Assembly: GCA_001910725.1 (NCBI GenBank)
Contig: MJGA01000004.1
Location: 1,860,001 to 1,924,000 of the forward strand
DNA from: Phanerodontia chrysosporium
Taxonomy: Eukaryota; Basidiomycota; Agaricomycetes; Polyporales; Phanerochaetaceae
Direction of reading: 5' to 3'
DNA length: 64,000 nucleotides
The notes under the pieces were generated by a model. It had not been told where the DNA came from and searched no databases. It saw nothing but the letters and a program-made list of their open reading frames with translations. This document shows positions 49,094 to 62,670 of this stretch, piece after piece. Numbering within the stretch: position 1 is the stretch's first letter; each line of letters begins with the position of its first letter. The translations under genes and the position numbers were made by a program.

Positions 49094-50548
49094 ATGCCGC
49101 GCGCACTGAACTCGAGAAAATTGGCAGAACAGGAGGATGCCAGCTCCTACAGGCCTCGCGTGGCTTCTTGTCCGCCTGCCGCGTCTTATACAGCCAAACG
49201 GCGGGGTACCTTCATCGGGAAACCTCCGTGAGTAATTGTGCTTTGCAAACTTATGAAAGCTAATTTAGTTCAGTCCTGGGTGCAGAGAGATTTCTGTAAG
49301 GCCTACCAGGTATTATGTAGGCGCGCCACCGCCGTGAGTGCCGGATTTTGCTGCCACATCTGCATGTACTAATGCTTGCGGCTCAGTCACCTGATGAGAA
49401 TGGAGGTGGAAAGGCTGTGCGAAAAGTGAGTGAACAATCGAATTAATAGTATAGGCCTTCACAGCGGCTTGTTCAGTACGAGTACGACTTGGACTGCCAG
49501 GTCTTCAGCATCGGCGCCGTTCGTCGGTACGGTTTTGGAAGCACCGCCTGACAACGAAAGTGCCGGAATCCGTCAGAAGAGAGCTAGGTGCGTGGCTCAC
49601 ATATGTTGAGAGACCTTGATGACAACGGAGCACTACAGTACCTCCCACTTGAACTCTCAAGACAAGAGCGCAGTGCGCTTTTATGAGGCGCCATGTGAGG
49701 AGATAGATGAGAATTTCTTGTTTATCCCTGAGGAGGAGACTCCGACACAACGAGATGGCAAGATTCCCGTGCGCGTTCTCGAAGACTTCGCGATATACGA
49801 GGTGAAGACTGGGCGCCTCGTTCATCTGGAGGAAGTTGATGGCAGTGGACGGTACAGCGCTTCAGGCGCAGTCCTGCCATGGTTCGGCGGCGACGAGGAG
49901 AGCGTTTGCCGCTTTGAACCTGACGACAAAAGCAGCAGATCTCCTGAACCCACGCTACCCCGAGTATATCTCTCCAACATCCTGGAAGTGAATATCCATC
50001 ACGCAACGGTCAACAAGTCTGACACGAGCAAGTCTGATGTGACGCTCTCTCTTGATCCGTGAGTACTCAGCTCACTGCTATAGACGTGCCTGATTCTTCT
50101 CAGTCATATATACATTGGCACTGCACATGCATGGTATATCATACAAGATCCCCTGCCTATCTACACCCAGTTCTTTGCTTCTCTACAGATCAAATGTTTC
50201 CTCTTCCATGAACTAGTAACATGTGCTCTTCAGGATCCAGATAACCAGCTAACTCTGGAAGAGTTTACAAGCTGGTTATCACTTTCAGAGCCGTTGGCAT
50301 CAGGCATACAGGTTGCTGGTGAACATCTGACTTCACCTGATGCTGTGAGACTCTTTCTGTAGATCTCACTCTAATACTCACCACAATCACAGATTCTGCA
50401 CATCACAGAGACATTCAACAGATTGTGCTCTGACAAGGTTATCAGGAAAGTCCTTGCTCCCTTAACAACTGCACCTGCCCTGGCTGCTCTCCTTTGTCAA
50501 GATGCTGTCACAGTGGCGCACCATACAAGTGTGGCCATTGAGAGGTAT
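49094..50548 (+). pseudogene. DNMT1: DNMT1-type DNA (cytosine-5) methyltransferase, 5' part, interrupted by retrotransposon
   Basis: N-terminal part of a methyltransferase gene whose remainder lies at 59119-62670. ATG on 49094-49096 (MPRALNSRKLAEQEDASSY); several short exons follow. The replication-foci (RFD) domain is clear in 49633-50060: IPVRVLEDFAIYEVKTGRLV, HLEEVDGSGRYSASGAVLPW, YLSNILEVNIHHA. It continues after an intron with IYIGTAHAWYIIQDPLPIY and in the next exon (about 50390-50548) with ILHITETFNRLCSDKVIRK. That exon is cut by the element after a codon pair read as Glu-Arg. RFD domains target DNMT1 to replicating, hemimethylated DNA. From about 50086 the host sequence is almost free of CpG. 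As it stands, transcripts would run into an 8.6-kb antisense element, so I call the allele disrupted. Confidence 0.9.
50544..50548. repeat. Target-site duplication, left copy (GGTAT)
   Basis: GGTAT directly precedes the left LTR; the same five bases follow the right LTR at 59119-59123. A 5-bp duplication is typical of Ty3/gypsy integrases. Confidence 0.95.
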
Positions 50549-51072
50549 TGTCAAAGTAAACCCCGCTACTTACCTTAGTAGCTTTGGTGGGGTGAGACTT
50601 GACTGCGAGAGTGAAGTAGTGGTAGACGAGGTAGATGATGCTGGGGACTTAAGCCCAGCAGAGCCCGGTATATATACATGAAGGGGAGGACCCCTGGTAC
50701 TACCCGAGACCCTTGATACTGTCCATCACATGCGCGATGGCGTGCTGATGGTGCGATACTTGCCAAGACACTCCGGGCTCGGCGAAGTCTAAAGCCGAGT
50801 ACCGGATGTGTCCGGAACCTTCTACGCTATTCTAGAATACACTACCCGGACCCTGGGTCCGGCTACCTACTATACCCTTGTACCGGAGCGTCTACATCAT
50901 AGATAAGATAAAGATAAGATCCTCACATGACTCTGAGTCCTTTCCCAGCACGTGACCAACACGTGACCGCGTTCTGACGCGTGCCTGTCCTAACCCTAGT
51001 CCATAACCCTAACCCCAGCGCCTACTGGGCGCTTACGAGAATAAAACCGTAGGGAATTAGAAAACTGTGACA
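50549..51072 (-). repeat. Left (3') LTR, 524 bp
   Basis: Same sequence as 58595-59118 by inspection. In element orientation U3 comes first: two telomere-like TTAGGG motifs, two CACGTG E-boxes (50949-50954 and 50960-50965), three GATAAG/GATAA motifs on the opposite strand (50902-50919), a TATA box (50669-50676), then the predicted transcript start at 50642. Confidence 0.97.
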
Positions 51073-51086
51073 GTACCCCCTCTTCA
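51073..51086 (-). promoter_or_regulatory. Polypurine tract of the retrotransposon
   Basis: Immediately inside the 3' LTR the element strand reads GAAGAGGGGG then TAC, the expected plus-strand primer site. Three non-purine-tract bases lie between it and the LTR. Confidence 0.7.
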
Positions 51087-51112
51087 GATTCGAACTCCCG
51101 AGAGAAGACTTT

Positions 51113-54100
51113 TTATTTTCCAGTGGATCCAAACCCGCCTGAACCACGATCGGTTGACTGTAGTGTCTCGACAACTTCTATGTCGGCATCGGCAACTTTC
51201 TCCAGGATCAATTGAGCCGCCCTATCTCCAGTCGTGACTGTGAAGTCACTGTCGCTTGTGTTAAGGAGTAGTATTTTGACGATACCCGTGTAGTCCCGGT
51301 CGATAACGCCTGCGCCGACATGAATGCCTTTGAGTGCAAGTCCTGATCGTGGTGCAATCCGTCCGTAGGTTCCAGTTGGAACTCGGATGTGAATGCCAGT
51401 GCTGATGAGTTTGCGGTCTCCTGCCGGAATTGTCGCGTCTTCTGCTGCATACAGGTCCCAGCCTGCTGCCTCGGTGGTGCTCTTGGATGGTGTTTTTCCA
51501 CCATCTAGAACGATCTGAAGGGTTTCCTCTTCATCGAGTTCTAAACCGTCTGTTTCCATAGGTGCTTCTTCGTTCCGAACGCGCCAAAATTCCGCGATCT
51601 TCTCTTTAGCACCTTCCAGATTACTCTCTGGTTCCCATTTGTCTTCTTCTGGCCCATAACCCTTCCATCGAACCATGTACCAGTTTCGTTTCCTGACACG
51701 CCCGGTAGTTTTGTGGTTGAGAATTTTCTCGACCTCGTACTCGAGCTCTCCGTCATGAACTTCTGGCTCTGGCGGTGCGGCTCGTTGGCCGACGATGGAG
51801 GGTGTAGAATAGGGGATTAATTTACTAGCGTGGAACACCGGGTGATATGCCCTGTATTGTGGAGGCAGTTTCACCTTGAAGGTTACTTTGGATAGTTGTT
51901 CGATGATTTCGAACGGTCCTAGGTACCTCGGTGTCAGCGTGCGTTGAGTGGTTTGGTAATCCTTTGAATTCAGCAAGACTTTGTCGCCGACTTTAAACGG
52001 CACTTCTTGCTTGTTCTGGTCGTAATACCACTTCATACGGTCCGCTGCTAGTTGTAGGGCTGCTTTGGCCTTGTCTTGGGCGTCTTGCCTAAGTCTGAAT
52101 ATCTCGTTCAAGTCTTTGCTTTTGGGTTGCTTGTCGAGAGTTGGTCCTGCCCGTGGGTGTCTACCATATTCTAGAAAGAACGGCGTGTCCTTTGTACTTT
52201 CATGTGCTGCATTGTTGTAGGCGAATTCTGCGGTGGGCAGATAATCGACCCAGTCTTCGTGATTGACATTATCAGCGAAGCAGCGTAGGTACTGTTCTAG
52301 AACTTGATTTACTCGTTCTGTTTGACCGTCTGTCTGAGGGTGGTATGCCGTAGACATCGCTGACTCGATACCGAGTAGCTTACACCATTCTTGAAAGAGT
52401 TCCGCCGCGAATTGAGTTCCTCTGTCTGAGATTATTTGCAAAGGTAGTCCGTGGATAGGGTAAATTCTATCCATCAGGATCTTTGCGAGGTCTTTAGCAG
52501 AGAATTTGTTCGTTATCGCAAAGAAACGTGCTCTCTTGGTGAGTCGGCATACAACGACTAGAATGGCATCCTTTCCTCTTGACGGCATCAACTGAGTAAT
52601 CAAGTCGATGGTAATAACTTCCCAAGGTCCATTAGGTACCTTGTTGGGCATGAGTTGTCCGTAGGTCTGCTGTGTGCGATTCTTCATTCGCTGACACGTG
52701 TCGCAACCTGTGACGTATTTCTTGACGAAGACAGACATTCCCGGCCACCAATAGTTTCGGGAGACAAGTTCGTAGGTCTTCCATCTGCCTGGATGTCCGG
52801 CTGATGGGTGGTCGTGGTGCATTTGGACTACTCGTCGTCGTAAGTCCTCATTCTCATCCTTTGGTATGTAGATATGTCCCCGGAAGAGTAGCAATCCATT
52901 CTCAAAGTTCCATTCCTCTAACGGTTTCTTGAACTCGCGTGGGCCTGATTTGAGTAACGATTGATAGTTCTTGGTGACTTCGTCGGATAACAGAGCCTTC
53001 TTGACCTCTTGGAGCAGTAAATTGTCGTTTACTGGAGCGTCATGGGAGGCGTCGATCGCGCAGACTTCGAGCAGATTGGCGAAAAATTCTGGCTTCAGAA
53101 GAATATGGTCGCGATTATCGAGTTCTACCCCCTCTTCATGATCTGGTCTCCTGGACAGAGGGTCTTCAGCTTCCATTGTTTTACCCGGCTTGTGGTGTAG
53201 TGTGAAATGGAATCTTGTTAGGTATAATGCCCAACGAGCTTGACGACGAGACAATTTCTGGGCCTGCTTGAAATAAGTCAGGTTTTGGTGGTCTGACCAT
53301 ATCTCGAATTTCTCCGGATGTCCCTCTAGATAGTGCCTATACTCTTCTAACCCGCGGATTATGGCCAACATCTCCTTGTCGTATATCTCATAGTTCCTTT
53401 CGTGAACATTGAGTGACTTGGAGTGGAAGGCTACCGGATGGTAAAGCTTATCGTTTGGGTCGAGTTGTGACAGAACCGAGCCGATCGCGAAGTCACTCGC
53501 GTCGGTAGAGAGCCTGAACGGATTAACGTCGTCCGGAATTCGTAGAATTGGTGCAGAAGTGAACGCCTTTTTCAGGTCGTCAAATGCCTTCTGCTGGTCG
53601 GGACCCCATTCCCATGGTTGATCCTTCTTGGTGAGTACCGTGAGTGACTTCGTGATCTTCGCAAAGTCTTTAATGAACCTGCGATAGAAATTCGCGAATC
53701 CAAGGAATGCCTGAACGTGCTTGACCTTGGTCGGTATGGGCCACTCCGTTACGCCTGTGACTTTAGCAGGGTCCATTTCCACATGATTCTTGGATATAAT
53801 CATGCCGAGATAGGCGAGCTTGTCCTTCTCGAATAGACACTTTTCTGCCTTTGCGAAGAGGTCGTTGTCTTCCAGTCGCTGCAACACTTCGTGTACGATC
53901 TTTCGATGTTCCTCGCGGTCGTTGCCGAAGATGAGGATATCGTCGAGGTAGACCATAACCTTTCCTTGACGGATAAGGTCTTCGAAAATGTTGTTCATCA
54001 TATTCTGAAATGTTGCTGGTGCGTTTGCGAATCCAAAGTACATAACTTTGGCCTGGAATAAACCGTCCTTGGTTACAAAAGCCGTTTTCCACTCGTCACC

Positions 54101-55264
54101 TTCTTTGATGCGGACATTGTTATATCCCCATCGAAGGTCGATCTTTGTGAATATCGACGCCTGAGACAGTGCGTCGATTAAGTCGGTGATGCGAGGGATA
54201 GGATAACGGTTTTTCTTTGTAATTCCATTCAAGGGGCGGTAATCCATGCAAGGTCGCAAACTACCATCGGCCTTCTTTACGAAAAAGAATGATGCAGCGA
54301 TGGGTGACTTCGACTCTTCTATGTAGCCTTTTCGGCGTTCCTCACGAATCCACTCGTCGAAAGACGAGCGTTGTCTCTGGTCTAGTGGGTACACCTTTCC
54401 GATTGGGGGCAGCTTAGCTCCTTCCTCAAATTCGATGGCATGATCCCATGGTTTGTGGGTGGGCATGCGTTCAGACTTGGTTTTACTGAAAACGCTTTCG
54501 AATTTGTGGACCCAACTCGGTACCTGTGATTTCCATTGCGAGGTGTCAACTGTATCGTCATCATCCTTTTCCAGGATGTCAGCAACAGCCTCGGCTTGCG
54601 TTCGTTCCTCTGGGTTACTGAAATCAACCCAGTTGATGTGGTGGGGAATATCCTCTTCTCCAATATCGTCCAGTGAGGATTCCCAAGGTTGCTCTGGTTC
54701 GAGCTCTGCCAGCTCCTCGTCATTGCCGATCTCAATGTCGAGGGCTTGGACTTTCTGTGCCATGCTGGAGACTTTGCATGATTCAGGACATCTGGTGAAC
54801 TCCCAATTGCCTTTTGCCCAGTCGATTTCTGGGTTATGCCGGTGTAGGAACTTGTACCCTATATACATGTCTTTGTCGTGCAAATCCGTCACGAGCAAGT
54901 ACTGGGTATGTTTGTGCGTTCCAATTTCCAAGTAGGCTCGCAGGGCGTGAGTGATTCGTCCTGCTTTATTGATCGTTCCATCCGCATTTTTTACTTCATA
55001 CGGATTTGCCAACTTAATAGTTACCAGATTGTTCTTTTCGACGAAGCTGTGATTGATGAAACTCGTCGTGGCGCCTGAATCAACCAGGGCTTCTGCCTGC
55101 GCTTTTTTACCATACACCCACAGAGTAATAGGAAGTTTGAACGATAATGATTTATTACGCGAGACGTTCAATACATCAATATCAATTACTCTATCTACAT
55201 CCAGTGTAGACTCGGCCGTGGGTACATGATCAGCGTTATTAACCTGTAGGACGCAGGGATCCAC
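51113..55264 (-). CDS. pol: Pol polyprotein: protease, RT, RNase H, integrase, chromodomain, dUTPase
   Basis: 1,383 codons, uninterrupted. Order with rough residues: aspartic protease DSGATTSFI at 62-70; RT from about 290 to 450 with YLDD at 439-442; RNase H with LSTDASDFAIGSVLS; integrase zinc finger (HHDHPSAGH ... CDTCQRMK), DDE core (TIDLI, ISDRGTQFAAELF, TAYHPQTDGQTERVNQ); GPY-like module (LTPRYLGPFEIIE); chromodomain EYEVEKILNHKTTG ... YMVRWKGYGPEEDKWEP; and from about 1245 a dUTPase with all five motifs (AAGWDLYAAED, PRSGLALK, GVIDRDYTGIVK, GDRAAQLIL, RGSGGFGSTGK). There is no ATG near the start: the frame opens at 55294 and the listed boundary is a GTG, so it must be reached from gag by frameshift, splicing or similar. 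Codons lie in a different phase from gag. Confidence 0.97.
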   Translation of the reverse strand: MDPCVLQVNNADHVPTAESTLDVDRVIDIDVLNVSRNKSLSFKLPITLWVYGKKAQAEALVDSGATTSFINHSFVEKNNLVTIKLANPYEVKNADGTINKAGRITHALRAYLEIGTHKHTQYLLVTDLHDKDMYIGYKFLHRHNPEIDWAKGNWEFTRCPESCKVSSMAQKVQALDIEIGNDEELAELEPEQPWESSLDDIGEEDIPHHINWVDFSNPEERTQAEAVADILEKDDDDTVDTSQWKSQVPSWVHKFESVFSKTKSERMPTHKPWDHAIEFEEGAKLPPIGKVYPLDQRQRSSFDEWIREERRKGYIEESKSPIAASFFFVKKADGSLRPCMDYRPLNGITKKNRYPIPRITDLIDALSQASIFTKIDLRWGYNNVRIKEGDEWKTAFVTKDGLFQAKVMYFGFANAPATFQNMMNNIFEDLIRQGKVMVYLDDILIFGNDREEHRKIVHEVLQRLEDNDLFAKAEKCLFEKDKLAYLGMIISKNHVEMDPAKVTGVTEWPIPTKVKHVQAFLGFANFYRRFIKDFAKITKSLTVLTKKDQPWEWGPDQQKAFDDLKKAFTSAPILRIPDDVNPFRLSTDASDFAIGSVLSQLDPNDKLYHPVAFHSKSLNVHERNYEIYDKEMLAIIRGLEEYRHYLEGHPEKFEIWSDHQNLTYFKQAQKLSRRQARWALYLTRFHFTLHHKPGKTMEAEDPLSRRPDHEEGVELDNRDHILLKPEFFANLLEVCAIDASHDAPVNDNLLLQEVKKALLSDEVTKNYQSLLKSGPREFKKPLEEWNFENGLLLFRGHIYIPKDENEDLRRRVVQMHHDHPSAGHPGRWKTYELVSRNYWWPGMSVFVKKYVTGCDTCQRMKNRTQQTYGQLMPNKVPNGPWEVITIDLITQLMPSRGKDAILVVVCRLTKRARFFAITNKFSAKDLAKILMDRIYPIHGLPLQIISDRGTQFAAELFQEWCKLLGIESAMSTAYHPQTDGQTERVNQVLEQYLRCFADNVNHEDWVDYLPTAEFAYNNAAHESTKDTPFFLEYGRHPRAGPTLDKQPKSKDLNEIFRLRQDAQDKAKAALQLAADRMKWYYDQNKQEVPFKVGDKVLLNSKDYQTTQRTLTPRYLGPFEIIEQLSKVTFKVKLPPQYRAYHPVFHASKLIPYSTPSIVGQRAAPPEPEVHDGELEYEVEKILNHKTTGRVRKRNWYMVRWKGYGPEEDKWEPESNLEGAKEKIAEFWRVRNEEAPMETDGLELDEEETLQIVLDGGKTPSKSTTEAAGWDLYAAEDATIPAGDRKLISTGIHIRVPTGTYGRIAPRSGLALKGIHVGAGVIDRDYTGIVKILLLNTSDSDFTVTTGDRAAQLILEKVADADIEVVETLQSTDRGSGGFGSTGK

Positions 55265-55328
55265 TACAGGTCGTTGAGAAAATCCACTTTCCGGTCAGAC
55301 GATTTCGCGTATTTAGCAGCTCGGGCCC

Positions 55329-56828
55329 TCATACGTGCACGCCTAGCTTCCCGCTCATCAACGGGTTCCTGGGGGGAGTCTGTTTCAACTCCTTCTCGTC
55401 CTCCTCCGTCCATTCGTGGATATGGGCCGCATTGATGACGACTTCGTCGTCGGCCTCGAGTCCCGCGATCTCCTTCTCCAATTCGGCCATCCTGGCCTTC
55501 GCTTGATTGAAGGAGTTCTTCTTGGCGGCGATTGCCGCTGCGTTCTTGCCTTTTCCTTGATTATTACTCCCCCCGCTCGAGGAGGAGGCCTTGCCGTTGT
55601 TGTTGTTACCAGAGGACTGTTGCGGCTTTTGGTCCTTGAGCGAGAAGCAGTCCGAAGTCACGTGCGTTTTAGCACGCGCGAACTTCTTCAGCTCGGTGCA
55701 AATGGCGCAGGGAGTGGAAACCTTCTTGGCTTCCTGAGAATTCGCCTGTTGTTTCCCCTTGCCTTTGCCCTTGCCTGTCTGAGCCGCGCTGATGTCCATA
55801 GCGTTCGGGTCCGGTGTAGAACCCGAGCCGTGCGAGTTTCCCTTGCTGAAGATGTGCGTCGCTGCGCGGTCGGGGTAGAGTTCCTTGTATGCCTCAACGA
55901 GATACGTCATGAATTCCGACGCAGTTGTAGGCCAACTCGAGCGACCGCGACCCAGCACGAAGATGCCCAGCTTCTCCTCGACGTTGTCGTACAGCTTGTT
56001 AATCATATGCGCGTCCGTGAACGGCTTGCTGCTGTTGTCGAGGAGTACCTTGAAGCGAACCGAGTAGTCGATGATATCCTTCTGAAGGGCCGACTTGTCG
56101 TTGAGTAGCTTCTCGAGGTCCTTCGTTGCCGTGCGCGTAACATCCTTTTGACCGTAAACCGTCTGGAGACTAGCCCAGAAACTGTCGACCGAGCCCATGT
56201 CCTCGCCCCTGGCGTTCTTGTCCAACAGTGGTTGCATCAGCTTCAGGGCCGGTTCACGCAACAGGGACAACGCATTGACGATGCGCTGTTTGTCCGTTGT
56301 GATGCCCTGGGTGCTGTTCCAAAGTTCGACCAGATTTTTCCATTCCTCAAACTTCGTCGTATTCTTCTCGCCTGAGAAGAGCGGCGGTTGGGCGGACTTG
56401 GGGCGAGCAGGTGCGCCACCTCCTGAACCGATACCGGCTGGGAGGGCGTTCAACTGTTTGATCGCATTGTCTGCGACCCCCTTGACGCTTTCCAGCGCGG
56501 CTTCCTGGACATAGGTGATTTTCTGGGTTTCGACCAGCTCTTCGCGGACTTCGTCCACCTTCTCCAGAATCGTCGTCATAGCCCCGTTAAAAATATTGAG
56601 GAACCCATCGAATAGGTGCCTCACGTGGGCCTCGTTCTGACGGGAGGCTTCGACAACCCCCGCGTAGATCGATTCTTGAATGAAAATCCTTTGGTTCTGC
56701 GATATCTCCTCTGGTGCTGCGACCGAGGAGATTGCCTGAACCGTGGTCTCGTGCGAGAGCTGAATATTGTCCGAGGACAAGTTGATTTCGGTCCAGTTGA
56801 TTTGTGCGATTTGATCAGCGTCGGCCAT
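55329..56828 (-). CDS. gag: Gag-like protein of the retrotransposon
   Basis: 499 codons from MADADQIAQINWTEIN. Coiled-coil-like N-terminus, then a Ty3-type capsid segment (PPLFSGEKNTTKFEEWKNLVE ... FWASLQTVYGQKD). The C-terminal third is Gly/Ser/Lys-rich with an atypical knuckle CAIC-x10-H-x4-C (CAICTELKKFARAKTHVTSDC). The frame ends at 55329, but the -1 frame just upstream is also coding-like and runs to a TAG at 55264-55266, overlapping the pol frame; so the true gag end is uncertain. Confidence 0.88.
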   Translation of the reverse strand: MADADQIAQINWTEINLSSDNIQLSHETTVQAISSVAAPEEISQNQRIFIQESIYAGVVEASRQNEAHVRHLFDGFLNIFNGAMTTILEKVDEVREELVETQKITYVQEAALESVKGVADNAIKQLNALPAGIGSGGGAPARPKSAQPPLFSGEKNTTKFEEWKNLVELWNSTQGITTDKQRIVNALSLLREPALKLMQPLLDKNARGEDMGSVDSFWASLQTVYGQKDVTRTATKDLEKLLNDKSALQKDIIDYSVRFKVLLDNSSKPFTDAHMINKLYDNVEEKLGIFVLGRGRSSWPTTASEFMTYLVEAYKELYPDRAATHIFSKGNSHGSGSTPDPNAMDISAAQTGKGKGKGKQQANSQEAKKVSTPCAICTELKKFARAKTHVTSDCFSLKDQKPQQSSGNNNNGKASSSSGGSNNQGKGKNAAAIAAKKNSFNQAKARMAELEKEIAGLEADDEVVINAAHIHEWTEEDEKELKQTPPRNPLMSGKLGVHV

Positions 56829-56961
56829 TGTTTCTTAGTCAAAATGTATATTAGTACAAATTCTTTCCACTTTTACAGTTGGAAAGTAAGGAAAACTCTT
56901 ATGTATCACACAGAAGTTCAGTGTCAGGTGGAGTTTTTATTACATCGGGTTACAGGTGGAT

Positions 56962-57747
56962 TTAGTATTCGAATGAGATATTGAGAGCGACGAGCTCCCT
57001 TGCGATCTCTACATATCGAGTACTAAAATTTTCGAAGGATACATATTTTATTTTCTTTAGATCCCTCGTAATCCACCTGTAGTGCTTTCCCTTCAACTTC
57101 TTTCTCCCCTTGTTCTCGTCGAAGTGGTCGTATAGGTCTTCGAAGTCGACGAGCAACTTCGAGACTTCGTCGCCTAGCTCCTTGTCGACCTTGTCGATGT
57201 CGACGAGGTGGTCGCTGAGCGGTACCAAACGAAGGTTTACCGCGTTGAACAAATTCATCATCTCTTTTGTTCGATCGATGATGTGCGACTTCTGTATACG
57301 ACCTGCTTCTTTCGGGACCTTGCCTTGCATATCGCCGTCGTTCCCGTATGTCTCCTCGACCTCTTCTTGAGACAGGTGCTGAGGGGGGCCCAGGCGACTC
57401 AGGAGTGAGGGAGCCGGATTCGAAATCCGGTCCTCGAGACGCTTGCGCGCCTTCATCTTCATGATGAGCCTGGAGGCCTGTTCGAGCGCCCAGAGGCGTT
57501 CCTCGAACTCCTCGTTGATGCGGTCCTGCTCGGCCTTCGGGACGGGGCGGGTGACGGTGCGACGGTTACGCTCGCGCTGGAGGAGATACTTCTCGCGCTG
57601 TTTGGGGCGCTCGATCTCGGCCAGCTTCTCCTTGACCTCCTCGTAGACCTTTTCCTGGGTCTCCTTGCGAAGCGAAATACGCTCGGCAAGGGAGGGGTAG
57701 GGGGCGGCGGCGTTGCGGGCAATGATGGTCTTGTTGTAGAACTTCAT
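56962..57747 (-). CDS. Extra ORF ahead of gag, unknown function
   Basis: 261 codons from an ATG, on the element's coding strand between the leader and gag. The product is highly charged and helical (KEKLAEIERPKQREKYLLQR, LEQASRLIMKMKARKRLED), with a short PSLLSRLGPP segment and an acidic middle. No domain recognised. Such an ORF is not part of the standard gag-pol plan. A gtaaaa...cacacag pair spanning 57748-57782 could be a 35-nt intron ending directly at its ATG. It could be a captured gene, a second capsid-like protein or a regulator; nothing in the sequence decides. Confidence 0.7.
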   Translation of the reverse strand: MKFYNKTIIARNAAAPYPSLAERISLRKETQEKVYEEVKEKLAEIERPKQREKYLLQRERNRRTVTRPVPKAEQDRINEEFEERLWALEQASRLIMKMKARKRLEDRISNPAPSLLSRLGPPQHLSQEEVEETYGNDGDMQGKVPKEAGRIQKSHIIDRTKEMMNLFNAVNLRLVPLSDHLVDIDKVDKELGDEVSKLLVDFEDLYDHFDENKGRKKLKGKHYRWITRDLKKIKYVSFENFSTRYVEIARELVALNISFEY

Positions 57748-58581
57748 CTGTGTGATAACATAATCAACCAGCGTCCTTTTACAGGTACGGCTTATGGAAG
57801 GAAAAGTGCTCAGAAAATGAGGGTTACCAGCCCTCTCTTGCTGCGGTTCGAATCTTGATGCGCGCGCATTCGTGGGTAGAGTCGTTTACGGCATGCCATT
57901 ATCTCTCTGCACATGCGCGATGGGGGAGTTTCAGATCTCAGTCGGGTTTCCACACCCGCTGCAAATGGTTTGTCGTGCCTTACAGCTACGATCTCCACGG
58001 ACTTCCTAGATGCTAGCGTCTTACCGCTTGTCATCCAGTACCGGGGATGCGGTCACCTTGCGGTGGACTCAACACCCCACGCGTCGCGTGGCCACTTACG
58101 CCTGTGGATCGGCAAGGAGATTCCCATGCTGTATTGCACAGCCCGCCCACGTGGTCGCACTCCTGGCGCCACGTGTCCAACGGTGGGTCTCAACATGTCA
58201 AGCCCCTTGTCAGGTGGCCCAACGTATCCCCCAGATCCCAAGTCGTTTAGGTCTCCGGACAGGCCGAGCACAGCATCGCCTATTACAGGTCGAAGTGCGC
58301 TGCGAACCCGCCAACACAAACATCACTCGCGATAATTCGACGAGTAATGCCCATGCGACCCCATGGCCGACGACGTACAGCCCCCTTTTACAGGTGGACC
58401 TCAGTCGCCAGCCCCACGAATGATAACTACCCCTATTACAGGTGGTAGTCGCGCATCGAAGAAACGAACCTGCGAACGCAAGATTATGAGTAGTAAAGGT
58501 GCCGACGTCGCCGGCAACGACGTCGAGCATGCTGCGCACGACGATCAAGCCCTTAAGGCCGACGTCGACGCGAAGGGGTAT
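57748..58581 (-). other. Retrotransposon 5' leader with repeated ACCTGTAA motifs
   Basis: About 830 bp between the primer site and the extra ORF. No convincing protein. Element-strand ACCTGTAA recurs at 58436-58443, 58388-58395, 58283-58290 and 57779-57786, with a further copy before gag at 56950-56957; most are followed by A/TAGG. Might be splice donors or RNA-binding (packaging) sites. Confidence 0.5.
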
Positions 58582-58592
58582 AGCATCATCTA
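58582..58592 (-). promoter_or_regulatory. Primer-binding site, self-priming type
   Basis: Two bases inside the 5' LTR the element strand reads TAGATGATGCT, with no TGG start as for a tRNA primer. It is an exact 11-nt reverse complement of AGCATCATCTA in the LTR (58678-58688), which lies about 30 bp after a TATA box and so is the predicted 5' end of the transcript. This is the Tf1/sushi self-priming arrangement. Confidence 0.8.
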
Positions 58593-58594
58593 AA

Positions 58595-59118
58595 TGTCAA
58601 AGTAAACCCCGCTACTTACCTTAGTAGCTTTGGTGGGGTGAGACTTGACTGCGAGAGTGAAGTAGTGGTAGACGAGGTAGATGATGCTGGGGACTTAAGC
58701 CCAGCAGAGCCCGGTATATATACATGAAGGGGAGGACCCCTGGTACTACCCGAGACCCTTGATACTGTCCATCACATGCGCGATGGCGTGCTGATGGTGC
58801 GATACTTGCCAAGACACTCCGGGCTCGGCGAAGTCTAAAGCCGAGTACCGGATGTGTCCGGAACCTTCTACGCTATTCTAGAATACACTACCCGGACCCT
58901 GGGTCCGGCTACCTACTATACCCTTGTACCGGAGCGTCTACATCATAGATAAGATAAAGATAAGATCCTCACATGACTCTGAGTCCTTTCCCAGCACGTG
59001 ACCAACACGTGACCGCGTTCTGACGCGTGCCTGTCCTAACCCTAGTCCATAACCCTAACCCCAGCGCCTACTGGGCGCTTACGAGAATAAAACCGTAGGG
59101 AATTAGAAAACTGTGACA
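58595..59118 (-). repeat. Right (5') LTR, 524 bp
   Basis: Promoter LTR of the element. Reads the same as the left LTR over its whole length. Contains the U3 GATA and E-box motifs, a TATA box and the predicted transcript start. Confidence 0.97.
58715..58722 (-). promoter_or_regulatory. TATA box of the retrotransposon promoter
   Basis: TATATATA in the 5' LTR, placed at -34 to -27 relative to the A at 58688 that begins the 11-nt segment complementary to the primer site. Confidence 0.75.
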
Positions 59119-59123
59119 GGTAT
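59119..59123. repeat. Target-site duplication, right copy (GGTAT)
   Basis: Follows the 5' LTR directly and matches 50544-50548. Confidence 0.95.
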
Positions 59124-62100
59124 ATTCACCCTATAGTCAACAAGGCAGTTGTTACCTCAAGTGTATACAGCATAGCTTCCCAACTATTCCCTTCACAGCA
59201 TCTGCTGGAATTATCAAGAGATTTCAACACATATGGGAGCTGCCACAGAAGGGAAGGGCCAGATATCCATCACATACATGGTATACATGTCAATCACCAC
59301 TGGGGCCATGCAAATCCACTATGTCCAGGACACTATGACTCGGTATTCATTGATGGTGTTTATTATGAGGTACGTCTTCTTGATCTTGTCAAAATTCTCC
59401 AATAATGTATATTTACAGGCAGGAAATATAGTCATTGTTGAAGGTGGTCAAGATAGTGACAGAACAAGAGCAAAAAATGCAAGCAGTGAGCCAGCAAGAA
59501 CAGGAGACAGTACTCTTGACCAAAGATGGTAACAAATACCATCTTGGCTTGTATATATGCCCTGCACTTACAAATGGCCTTTATAGGTTCATGAAAATTT
59601 CCTACTTCTTTGAGCAGGAAGAGCAAGTCCAGACCAGGACCAGTGGCATGCAAAGAATCAAAACACAGTGGTTCCATGGGCACTACTACCAACATGGCTC
59701 AAAGCTGCTTTTTCAGGAGGTAGCCCATCCACAAACACTTTATCTTCTTGATGAATGCGATGACCAAAGACTTGGTTGCATTTTTCAAAAGATTAATGCA
59801 CATGAGCTTGACTTGCTTGAACAAGAGCCGCCACTACTCCCCCTTCACACTATTGGACACAGAGCATTCTTTACAAGGTGCCTTTATTTTACATATGCCA
59901 ACCTGATTATATTCTAACAACACATTGCTTCAGCACCCTATGGGACCAAACAGCAATGATGTTCCGTGAGCTGGACTCGGCCGAAAAGCACGCGGCACTC
60001 AGTACTTGCATGCCTGGTCAAGAGTGCCTGAACTGCGGCTTGACACAGCTGCGCACTCTGCGCAGTTCCTGGATTGTCACCACACACGAGGTGTTGCGGA
60101 ATTGCACCACCTACCATATCCACGACTTTGTGTACCTGCGCCCTGTGAACACAAGCCCTCCAGACCTGTATGTCATAGGCCAGATCACGGAGATCATGCT
60201 CGCGCGCGGGCAAGGCGAGCATCAAGTGGAAGTACGGATCCTGGAGCGGTATGACAAGGTCATCAGAAGCGAGTGGGGTCCGCGCAAGGAAGGCCTTCGG
60301 ACAGATGAGGTGAGCACACATCCTCCTGAACCATAGTCGAAATGATGGCTCACCCACTGCAGCGTCGCCTGTTTCTCACAGACGAGATCCGTACTTTCAC
60401 CGTCTCGCACATCGAGGGCAAGGCTTTCGTAGCGCATCCGTCAGCCCTCGGCGGCACAGCTGCTGCGGATGAATGGGTCACGCACGATGACCACTTCCTC
60501 GTCGACCTCTATGCACCAACAAGCCACCCAAAACGCACGCAACTGCAGAAGCTGGTGCCGCGCCAGCTTAAGCGTTGCGAGGCCTGCGTCACGTCTAGGC
60601 AGGAGGACTTGGACAAAGACAAGGAGCTCCTGCGCCAGCACGGGCCGCTCCGCTGTCTCGAGCTGTTCGCCGGCGCAGGTGGGCTCACGGCTGGTCTGCA
60701 CCAGTCTGGCTTTGTCGAGACCAAGTGGGCAGTCGAAGTGTCGCCTAGCGCCGCGTTGTCGTTTGCGTACGTGTTCTTGATGGGTTCTCTCTCCCTTTGT
60801 ATGCTGAACGCCATCTCTCCGCGCGCAGAGCCAACAATCCGGACTGCACAGTCTATACGCAGTGTTCGAGTGTCCTGCTCCAGCATGCGATCGAGATGGA
60901 ACGCGGACTCAAGCCGGAGCCACTCGCGAGTCGCGACCCAAGGGACAAGAAACCGTTGCCGCCAATGCCGAAGCCAGGAGAGGTGGATTTCATATGTGGG
61001 GGACCACCTTGCCAGAGTTTTTCTGGGGCAAACCGGGGAAAGGTAGGTCATTCAACGTCATTTCAGAGCAGGCAACTTATCGCAGGTCACTATCTAGAAG
61101 GCGGACGACATAAGGTAAGGTTAAACCTCTTGACTAATATCTTGAACTCCTCACATTCCCTGATTTAGGACGACGCTGATCTGCAACATGCTTTCCTATG
61201 TCGACTTTTACCGGCCGAAATATTTCCTGCTTGAGAACGTCGTCGGCTTGCTGTCTTTCCCCTTGGGCGCAAAGCAGCAAGGCAGTGTGATGGTCGGCGG
61301 GATCGCCATGGGCGTCGTGAAGTTCATCTTCCGCACGCTCGTGTCGCTCGGGTGCGTGGCAGCTCGTCTTCGCATCACCCGCACGCCAGTAATTGACAGC
61401 GGGGCGCAGGTACCAAGTGCACTGCAAAGTCCTGCAGGCAGCACAGTACGGCGCAGCACAGGCTCGGGAACGCGTGTTCTTCTGGGCCGCACGCCGCGAC
61501 GTCGTGCTGCCAGAGTTCCCGTACCCGACGCACCACTATGCGCGCGGCGTACACAGCTATAACCTGCCCGACGGCGAGGTACTCCATCGCCCGGTACGAG
61601 TGCCACCGCATGAGAACGCGCGGCGCAGTGACTACGCGCAGTACGCGCCGTTCCGGCGGTGACTGTGGAAGATGCAATCAGCGACCTGGTAGGTGCCAAG
61701 AGTCTGTGATGAAGGGAAAGGCATGGAGCTGACATGTGTTGGGCAGAGAAAATTTGATTGGCGCGACGCGGAGGCGTTTACCGAGGAGGACCAGCAGCGT
61801 CTCGCACAGGGCATCATGCGCTTTGACGCGGTCGCGAACCGCAAGGCGCGTGTCCCGTACGCGGGCTACGGCGGCAAGGGCACGACGTATCGGCACAAGC
61901 CGCTGAATCGCTACCAGATGGAGATGCGTGAGGGCCTCGCTGAGAACGAGGAGGTGACGTACCATTATACCCAGAAGTTCACAGAGGCCGTTGTGAAGCG
62001 GTGCGTAGCCAGCTTTGCATGCTGGTCGTTCGTGCTGATGCGGAGTGTAGCGTGCTTGGGGTTCCCCTCCGCCCTGGAGCCAATCATCAGGATTTACCTT

Positions 62101-62670
62101 CGTCGCTGCGCGATAAGCGCAAGTTACAGGCAAACGGGAAGTCGAAGAGGGAGTATGAGAGTGAGTCTCGAGCAGGGTTTTCGCGGTTCCATGTCAACTG
62201 ATGTAATTTCTGCGCAGAGCACTACAAACGCATCGACCGAGACGGGCAGTTTGCGACCATGCTCACGTCCATCAAGCCGCATAGCATGAACGCGACGGTC
62301 CTGCATCCGACGGTACGCCGTCTGTTACTCGTCCCGACATCATGACTTATGCGTGTCATACACAGCAAAAGCGAGTGCTGACCGTCCGCGAGTGCGCCCG
62401 CGCCCAGGGCTTCCACGACGGGCACCAGTTCCTCTCGGTGCACACCATACCGGCCAAGATTGTCGAAGATGTGAGTCCGGGTGTACGCCCTGTCTGATCG
62501 GAGCGCACTGACATCCCCTTCAGCAACTTCGCCAGATTGGCAACGCTGTGCCCGTGCCGCTGGCACGCGCGTTGGGCAAGGAGCTCGGTAAGGCGCTGCT
62601 GAAGACGTGGCGAGCGGAGGAGGCGGCCGCCCGCGAGTTGAGCCCGCGAGACGCGATGGAGGTCGAGTGA
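59119..62670 (+). pseudogene. DNMT1: DNMT1-type DNA (cytosine-5) methyltransferase, 3' part (BAH domains and catalytic domain)
   Basis: Continuation of the gene from 49094 after the element. The first exon resumes in phase at YIHPIVNKAVV. First BAH domain about 59419-59879 (WFMKISYFFEQEE, HGSKLLFQEVAHPQTLYLLDEC), second about 59938-60480 (YHIHDFVYLRPV, YVIGQITEIM, RRLFLTDEIRTFTVSHIEGKAFV). Catalytic motifs: I, LELFAGAGGLTAGL; IV, ICGGPPCQSFSGANRGK with the nucleophilic Cys; VI, YFLLENVVGLLSF; VIII, QYGAAQARERVFFWAA; IX/X, LTVRECARAQGF and QIGNAVPVPLARALGKEL. It ends at a TGA on 62668-62670. All introns join in frame except one single-base break near 61654-61656 in front of VTVEDAISDL. Preserved motifs suggest it was functional until the insertion. 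Confidence 0.93.

Follow-up and report, generated by a model that had tools for sequence, protein, structure and literature searches.

In fungi, 5-methylcytosine (5mC) has mainly been described on repeats, where its mutational footprint is the mark of dead copies. Animal gene-body methylation, in turn, is accompanied by CpG depletion over whole genes or long gene parts. RIP of the dim2 genes of Zymoseptoria tritici shows a CpA preference. A study of these dim2 genes reported that they were mutated after amplification and occur as mosaic alleles (PMC8016269). In Basidiomycota, Amselem et al. described CpG-directed RIP-like decay of transposable elements (TEs) (PMC4352252), and decay of the same kind was reported for the TEs of Ganoderma sinense (PMC4457147). 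CpG hypermutation in genes was reported for Rhizoctonia solani AG8 (PMC4014442).

Here, we analyse a 64,000-nucleotide stretch of Phanerodontia chrysosporium DNA (hereafter, the window), which contains a 1.3-kb block with near-complete CpG loss inside a gene for a DNA methyltransferase. Among the literature matches listed, the titles and abstract beginnings contain no description of such a block.

The Host Gene and the CpG-Poor Block

The features of the locus, in window coordinates, are as follows:

49619..50058, plus strand: first coding exon of the DNMT1-type gene; open frame, CpG O/E 1.02, partly covered by a tblastn match of protein P0001
50086..50548, plus strand: left side of the CpG-poor block, coding for the RFD end; 2 CpG, PF12047 match
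50544..50548: left copy of the target-site duplication GGTAT
50549..59118, minus strand: young Ty3/gypsy chromovirus with identical 524-bp LTRs; CpG O/E 1.06
51113..55264, minus strand: pol frame of the element, with protease, RT, RNase H, integrase, chromodomain and C-terminal dUTPase
59119..59123: right copy of the target-site duplication GGTAT
59119..59964, plus strand: right part of the CpG-poor block, first BAH domain; 4 CpG in 59119-59960, PF01426 match
59965..62670, plus strand: remaining gene, with exons for the second BAH domain and the methyltransferase; CpG at ordinary levels, frame shift near 61656

The presence of RFD, BAH and DNA_methylase domains together in one gene points to a DNMT1/Masc2-type methyltransferase. 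The RFD exon scores 23.6 bits against PF12047 (cut-off 22), or 21.0 bits, below the cut-off, in a six-frame search, and the DNA_methylase exon scores 28.5 bits (cut-off 22). The first BAH domain reaches 17.4 bits against PF01426, below the cut-off of 30.8, and is matched by solved DNMT1 chains with a best E of 3.3e-4. Polypore relatives, in the ten best matches, are 41-44% identical to the right-hand part. The block corresponds to exons 2-5 (the RFD end and the first BAH domain) with their introns, and the five GT-AG introns that the block contains or borders on are all intact. The gene as a whole lacks an end-to-end open frame: it is interrupted by an 8.6-kb element and, beyond the block, its frame shifts near 61656, possibly through an assembly error. 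This frame shift was not mentioned in the initial annotation.

The CpG O/E is 0.087 in 50086-50548 (2 CpG) and 0.109 in 59119-59960 (4 CpG), as compared to 1.02 in the preceding exon (49633-50062), 0.98 downstream (59961-61500) and 1.03 in the whole window. The initial annotation had given the same two counts, and its description of a depleted patch, A+T-richer and rich in TG and CA, between CpG-rich neighbours is borne out: the O/E is 0.09-0.11 against ~1.0 in the flanks and 1.03 for the window average, TpG+CpA reaches 1.6 (left part) and 1.5 (right part) times the expectation, and GC drops to 45% and 42%, respectively. GpC is normal across the block (1.05 left, 1.14 right). The five longest CpG-to-CpG gaps of the window all lie inside the block or reach into it, and a scan of positions 1-49600 in 10-bp steps found nothing comparable, with a minimum O/E of 0.56 for 463-bp stretches and 0.70 for 837-bp stretches. 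The edges were located by a two-edge fit on cytosines followed by G, with the element left out; 6 of 315 cytosines are followed by G inside the block versus 417 of 1317 elsewhere, which improves the fit by 82 ln units. Edge positions less than 2 ln units from the best fit fall at 50045-50105 and 59938-59964, i.e., they are defined to about 60 and 26 bp.

Context Dependence of the Loss

Codon context, used in place of an ancestral sequence, shows that the CpGs of the block decayed. Third-position C in the block is kept before G in only 1 of 53 codons, versus 58% before other bases; in the flanking exons, NNY codons before G keep C in 64% of cases, as against this 2% in the block. The NCG:NCA ratio is 4:40 in the block and 62:42 in the flanking exons, and arginine is encoded by CGN and AGR codons at 0:14 and 49:4, respectively. 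Codon bias or low GC alone is ruled out by this context test. However, third-position G is also low (0.46 in the block versus 0.79), and because non-CpG G and C are reduced as well, the decay was not purely at CpG. The CpG-to-TpG/CpA footprint recognized in the initial annotation is thus supported by codon context. With CpG lost, TpG and CpA gained and other C contexts less affected, the pattern fits gene-body 5mC followed by deamination; it also fits RIP-like mutation, in which C:G changes to T:A with the CpG preference found in Basidiomycota.

The same process has acted on repeats of this genome. Among 29 copies of one piece of the resident element, CpG positions make up 12% of the bases and 355 of 814 transitions. 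CpG losses and gains are in balance in the young copies, four older copies have lost 37-47 of 91 CpG and gained 4-5, and one old copy has 82 of 176 CpG bases altered by transition. As for the methylation machinery, a putative second DNMT1-type paralogue gives a tblastn match over nearly its whole length. There is also a methylase frame with an SNF2 frame after it.

Protein Constraint and Rate of Evolution

The block contains no stop in 347 codons, in agreement with the intact frame noted in the initial annotation. Simulated neutral decay at the rates of the old element copies, starting from the flanking exons, gave 6.0 expected stops; 0.1% of 2000 runs were stop-free, and none of the 2000 attained 14 AGR codons. 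When only CpG decayed, 0.37 stops were expected; because 66% of these runs were stop-free, an open frame by itself carries little weight. Of the conserved columns in the right-hand part, 61 of 87 are retained by the window's protein and 58 of 90 by the paralogue. That protein constraint was maintained during the CpG loss is well supported. An excess of CpG-type replacements at conserved columns was sought and not found (2 versus 2 reverse). In amino-acid content, His is raised (8.1% versus 4.6, sd 1.1), and the share of Lys is low (2.8% versus 5.0, sd 0.9).

The block has changed more rapidly than the flank, since the block/flank identity ratio is 0.785 compared with 0.912 (sd 0.093) among 220 pairs of relatives, and the end branch of the tree is 1.66 for the block versus 0.71 for the flank, i.e., 2.3 times longer. 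Together with P0004, the window's gene has the lowest mean block/flank identity of the 23 rows. Faster evolution of this kind would also follow from a foreign source or from relaxed selection. The block tree is compatible with the placement derived from the flank (p 0.3); a separate phylogenetic source for the block was not seen, and the two trees are without conflict.

The Resident Chromovirus

The LTRs, target duplication, RT, RNase H, integrase and chromodomain, all present, place the element among the chromoviruses. It is judged to be young because its 524-bp LTRs are identical, and it would have split the gene later than the CpG loss. Aligned to MPP8 chromodomain chains, its chromodomain has Y (versus F), W and Y at three places that we take to be those of the aromatic cage residues. 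With the three aromatic residues of H3K9me readers, it is predicted to belong to group I, following the published group I rule (PMC2832683).

At 17 of 19 other insertions, no flank falls under O/E 0.4. A CpG-poor flank accompanies 2 of the 19 (3 of 34 sides), compared with 0 of 292 background tiles. With sides as the unit, p is 0.001, but the sides are non-independent; the per-insertion test, which used twice the upper bound of a background drawn from a non-random sample of tiles, gives P 0.057 without the window's own insertion and 0.0075 with it. The evidence that the element prefers CpG-poor DNA is therefore suggestive only.

Other Methylase Loci, a Second Desert and Donor Searches

The initial annotation suggested self-targeting, i.e., a special link between the desert and a methyltransferase gene. 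This idea is not supported: the four other methylase loci examined (L013-L016) have no desert, with no 200-bp window below O/E 0.57, and an unrelated LRR-like gene on C54 has a similar bounded desert of its own, also with a young copy of the same element.

No second DNA copy of either block side was found in the assembly, nor was any other copy of a 51-bp piece of the block when up to 3 mismatches were allowed. Among proteins, the donor search returned one relative, 45% identical, whose locus has ordinary CpG. No recent donor within the genome was found by these searches. A search of the protein collection for the block alone found none in 476 candidates, with low sensitivity, as it was limited by word matching and also missed known polypore relatives of the right-hand part. 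In addition, the block does not appear to be duplicated DNA, the target of RIP, although a copy may have been lost, and it is free of the inactivating stops that RIP leaves in coding targets.

Origin of the Block

The CpG loss is plain from the counts. We infer that 5mC was its cause and that the decay acted in place. The reading we favour, tentatively, is long-lasting CpG methylation of a single bounded block while the gene was working, followed by insertion of the chromovirus. A DNMT1/Masc2-type paralogue would have been functional over a long period, during which the block alone was methylated and the exons on either side were unmarked. Methylation of the block would lead to decay of its CpGs to TpG and CpA on both strands, while selection preserved the conserved residues of the protein, so that arginine was finally confined to AGR codons. 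A young chromovirus would then have inserted in the block and disrupted the gene. Against this reading, methylation that spreads would not be expected to end so abruptly; our leading guess is that the mark was confined by a homology-defined target, a partial copy that is now lost.

Import by recombination (gene conversion or introgression) would have brought 1.3 kb from an allele, a paralogue or a related species in which the gene was CpG-depleted throughout, the edges being recombination ends. Both edges are sharp, 1.3 kb is a common length for such tracts, and the block has diverged beyond the prediction of its flank, with its end branch 2.3 times longer. Mosaic dim2 alleles made by recombination are described for Zymoseptoria (PMC8016269). 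However, the donor was not found as DNA, the sole protein relative (45%) has normal CpG, no protein in the collection matched the block alone in the search limited by word matching, the trees of block and flank show no conflict, and the puzzle is merely shifted to the donor; we consider import unlikely. Gene conversion from a methylated paralogue, as offered in the initial annotation, is kept among these rivals, with its donor not found. Less probable still is RIP- or MIP-like, CpG-directed mutation or methylation triggered by a partial copy of the block, both copies being hit and one later lost, so that the edges are duplication ends. This would account for the sharp edges and has parallels in the CpG-preferring RIP-like decay of methylated TEs in the polypore Ganoderma (PMC4457147), in the CpG signatures of basidiomycete TEs (PMC4352252) and in the repeats of this genome, but no second copy was found in the assembly, and after a brief burst AGR arginines should be few and the protein damaged, neither of which is the case.

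An origin without methylation, through codon choice, selection on composition or chance, could draw on the lower overall GC of the block (42-45%) and its low non-CpG third-position G; it is very improbable, as C is lost before G and largely kept before other bases, and no comparable stretch exists within 1-49600. The least credible reading is that methylation spread from the resident element, which lies within the block; in the polypore Wolfiporia, methylation on both sides of TE bodies has been reported (PMC9503964). This reading is largely refuted as a young element in an old desert, because the element has identical LTRs and is itself CpG-rich (1.06), and 17 of 19 other insertions lack a depleted flank.

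If the favoured reading of long-lived methylation within a working gene is correct, a fungal gene in use could be stably methylated over an internal stretch, and this would be detectable from sequence alone. Because the edges are sharp, what directed the mark can be tested through a comparison of strains. More broadly, and doubtfully, some genes here may hold sharply bounded blocks of ~1.1-1.3 kb that were long methylated while the gene worked, as a fungal counterpart of gene-body methylation restricted to a block, and in which chromodomain retrotransposons land, with the DNMT1 paralogue and the C54 LRR-like gene as two examples. If such blocks are preferred by the chromovirus, a desert would also document, in the sequence, old heterochromatin and the sites where elements of this kind land.

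Comparison with Known Systems

The block shares with basidiomycete TE decay the change of C:G to T:A with CpG preference, and the old element copies here are alike in this; there, however, the targets are repeats, whereas the block is single-copy in the assembly and keeps its frame and conserved residues. In Z. tritici, too, a cytosine methyltransferase gene was marked by its own genome's C-to-T machinery, but the account of dim2 concerns RIP of amplified copies with loss of function, whereas here a bounded inner block was affected, the change is tied to CpG and the block's frame is kept. Rhizoctonia solani AG8 likewise shows CpG-to-TpG change in Agaricomycete coding regions; there, this takes the form of widespread SNPs between nuclei, in contrast to the near-total loss seen here within a single block flanked by normal exons. 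The element itself resembles PosPlaTy3-4 of the polypore Postia, a dUTPase-bearing chromovirus (PMC2864245), in being Ty3/gypsy with a chromodomain and a dUTPase at the Pol C-terminus; it is unusual only in its insertion site, a CpG-poor coding block. Finally, the locus resembles animal gene-body methylation in its long-term CpG loss under protein constraint, whereas here the loss covers 1.3 kb of a gene whose adjoining parts are normal.

A CpG-depleted block within the methyltransferase gene

The CpG observed/expected ratio (O/E) is 1.03 over the whole 64-kb window and 1.02 and 0.98 in the exons adjoining the block upstream and downstream, whereas 50086–50548 holds 2 CpG (O/E 0.09) and 59119–59960 holds 4 (O/E 0.11), bearing out the depletion beside normal neighbours described in the initial annotation. 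A likelihood fit with two edges, made on the sequence flanking the element that splits the block, found a G after 6 of 315 cytosines inside, compared with 417 of 1317 outside, and placed the edges, within 2 ln units, at 50045–50105 and 59938–59964. By our own reading of the splice sites, intron 1 (50059–50103) lies inside the left interval and the intron at 59878–59933 ends 5 bases ahead of the right one, so the block consists of exons 2–5 and their introns.

The following features are relevant here:
50549–59118, minus strand: Ty3/gypsy chromovirus, recognized by LTRs, target duplication and Pol domains
C80, 1.942–1.946 Mb: paralogue of the methyltransferase, placed by the flank tree as sister of a protein from Phlebiopsis gigantea
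G000:C69:371000-380999 (L014): third methyltransferase relative with an RFD domain, highly divergent
G000:C44:460094-464499 (L016): methylase frame with an SNF2 frame after it

The chromovirus has 524-bp LTRs with zero differences, a 5-bp target duplication (GGTAT), and a Pol with protease, RT, RNase H, integrase, chromodomain and C-terminal dUTPase. The element is young and has a CpG O/E of 1.06, so the desert predates the insertion. Its RT piece has at least 41 genomic matches, 92–100% alike, and an extra frame (56962–57747, minus strand) gave no convincing Pfam match. Elements bearing a dUTPase are known in Postia and Phanerochaete, according to PMC2864245.

The element disrupts the window's gene copy. 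In its right-hand exons this copy is 41–44% identical to DNMT1-type proteins of polypores (ten best of 44 matches). The frame shifts near 61656, between two conserved stretches, which is either a genuine lesion or an artefact of assembly. The tblastn alignment of L014 lacks PCQ, which we take to be the usual motif, so this relative may be inactive. The methylase and SNF2 frames of L016 presumably represent the DNMT5 type. This reading also draws on a review (PMC7862722).

CpG loss in the codons of the block

The loss was dissected by comparing 347 placeable block codons with 702 flanking codons. Third-position C ahead of G was retained in 1 of 53 block cases (2%) versus 64% in the flank, while ahead of other bases the values were 58% and 72%. 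NCG:NCA was 4:40 versus 62:42, and arginine CGN:AGR was 0:14 versus 49:4, which together tie the loss to CpG on both strands. Other G and C were lost to a lesser extent (third-position G 0.46 versus 0.79). TpG+CpA reaches 1.6 and 1.5 times its expected value in the two parts, and the previously noted CpG loss with TG/CA gain is thus upheld. Set against 17 relatives, the protein encoded by 59119–59877 is unusually His-rich and Lys-poor, the pattern to be expected had CGN arginine become His and AAR lysine become AGR arginine.

The frame had been described as intact through the block, and it indeed has 0 stops. Simulated decay of the flanking exons at old-copy rates gave 6.0 expected stops, with 0.1% of 2000 runs stop-free; CpG-only decay, however, left 66% of runs stop-free, so the intact frame alone is weak proof. 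The fourteen AGR codons were attained in 0 of 2000 runs under either decay. Conserved columns of the right-hand part are retained at 61 of 87 in the window's protein and at 58 of 90 in the paralogue. For the window's protein, the block/flank identity ratio over like-for-like columns is 0.785, with P0004 as low, compared with a value of 0.912 (sd 0.093) across 220 pairs of relatives. The end branch of this protein measures 1.66 for the block versus 0.71 for the flank, so the block evolved faster at variable sites. No excess of CpG-type replacements was found at conserved sites. Judged from these comparisons, the block was under constraint, though less tightly than the flank.

The same decay in repeats, and a second block

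CpG-directed decay operates in element copies of this genome. A 1.5-kb element piece was compared pairwise with 29 copies, in which CpG positions make up 12% of bases yet account for 355 of 814 transitions. Losses and gains even out in young copies; four older copies, two of which gave the same counts and perhaps stem from a single event, lost 37–47 of 91 CpG and gained 4–5. Two further loci are relevant:
G000:C91:1119340-1122439 (L077, L055): old copy of a related element, far decayed, next to a young copy
G000:C54:734671-744336 (L103, L104): second CpG-poor block, in an LRR-like gene, element excluded

The O/E of the C91 copy ranges from 0.00 to 0.75 across 15 windows (200 bp each) and is below 0.35 in nine. 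Over 1543 aligned columns (L077), transitions have altered 82 of 176 CpG bases, compared with 10–21% of bases where C stands in another context and 3% of A/T. RIP-like change of methylated transposons prefers CpG in Ganoderma (PMC4457147), and in Wolfiporia CG makes up 93% of methylated sites and methylation tracks transposons (PMC9503964).

The C54 block was found while examining flanks of other element insertions. A G follows 7 of 261 cytosines inside versus 250 of 871 outside, with edges at 734657–734691 and 744295–744404; repeat-like sequence adjoins on the left, so the left edge may be a junction rather than a methylation edge. The block contains a young element copy (LTRs 99.2% alike, duplication ATATG) and an open frame of 261 residues from stop to insertion, without a Pfam match and LRR-like by our own reading. 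NNY before G retains C in 3 of 34 cases, NCG:NCA is 0:20 and CGN:AGR is 4:4. The contig also carries four relatives of the gene, whose CpG is ordinary.

Origin of the block

Self-targeting or autoregulation of the methyltransferase had been proposed; the loci of paralogues and of other methylase matches (L013 to L016) show no desert, and the similar block on C54 indicates that such a block is not special to this gene. The most likely mechanism, which we favour tentatively, is that one block of a working gene was methylated over long times, whereby its CpG would have decayed in place. Import of a CpG-poor tract, which includes the earlier proposal of gene conversion from a methylated paralogue, ranks second and is rather unlikely, and mutation triggered by homology to a partial copy since lost ranks third, as improbable. 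Both would account for how sharp the edges are and for the added divergence of the block; yet searches of the assembly and of the protein collection, the latter of low sensitivity for the block alone, found neither a donor nor a second copy, the block and flank trees do not conflict, and conserved residues are retained.

Landing sites of the element

Of 40 flank stretches from 20 loci, 6 were element interior and were dropped, whereby the C2 locus was lost entirely. Among the 19 other insertions for which one flank or both could be read, 2 adjoin CpG-poor DNA, namely those on C54 and C91 (the latter in an old element). Including the window's own, 3 of 20 insertions have such neighbours versus 0 of 292 background tiles; enrichment is only suggested, because, apart from five 2-kb picks, these tiles come mostly from gene-rich places. 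The chromodomain of the element aligns with MPP8 (E 2e-12), with aromatic residues at the positions that we take to be the H3K9me cage of MPP8. The MAGGY group I chromodomain binds methylated H3K9 and can direct integration to heterochromatin, according to PMC2832683.

Comparison with published systems

Among the titles and abstract beginnings listed, we found none describing a CpG-poor block with sharp limits within a fungal gene. CpG change within coding regions is spread genome-wide in Rhizoctonia solani AG8 (PMC4014442), and gene-body CpG methylation is associated with the lower-expressed allele in Puccinia striiformis (PMC12129025). In Zymoseptoria, the methyltransferase gene dim2 was hit by its own genome's C-to-T machinery and, in contrast to the block described here, lost function (PMC8016269).
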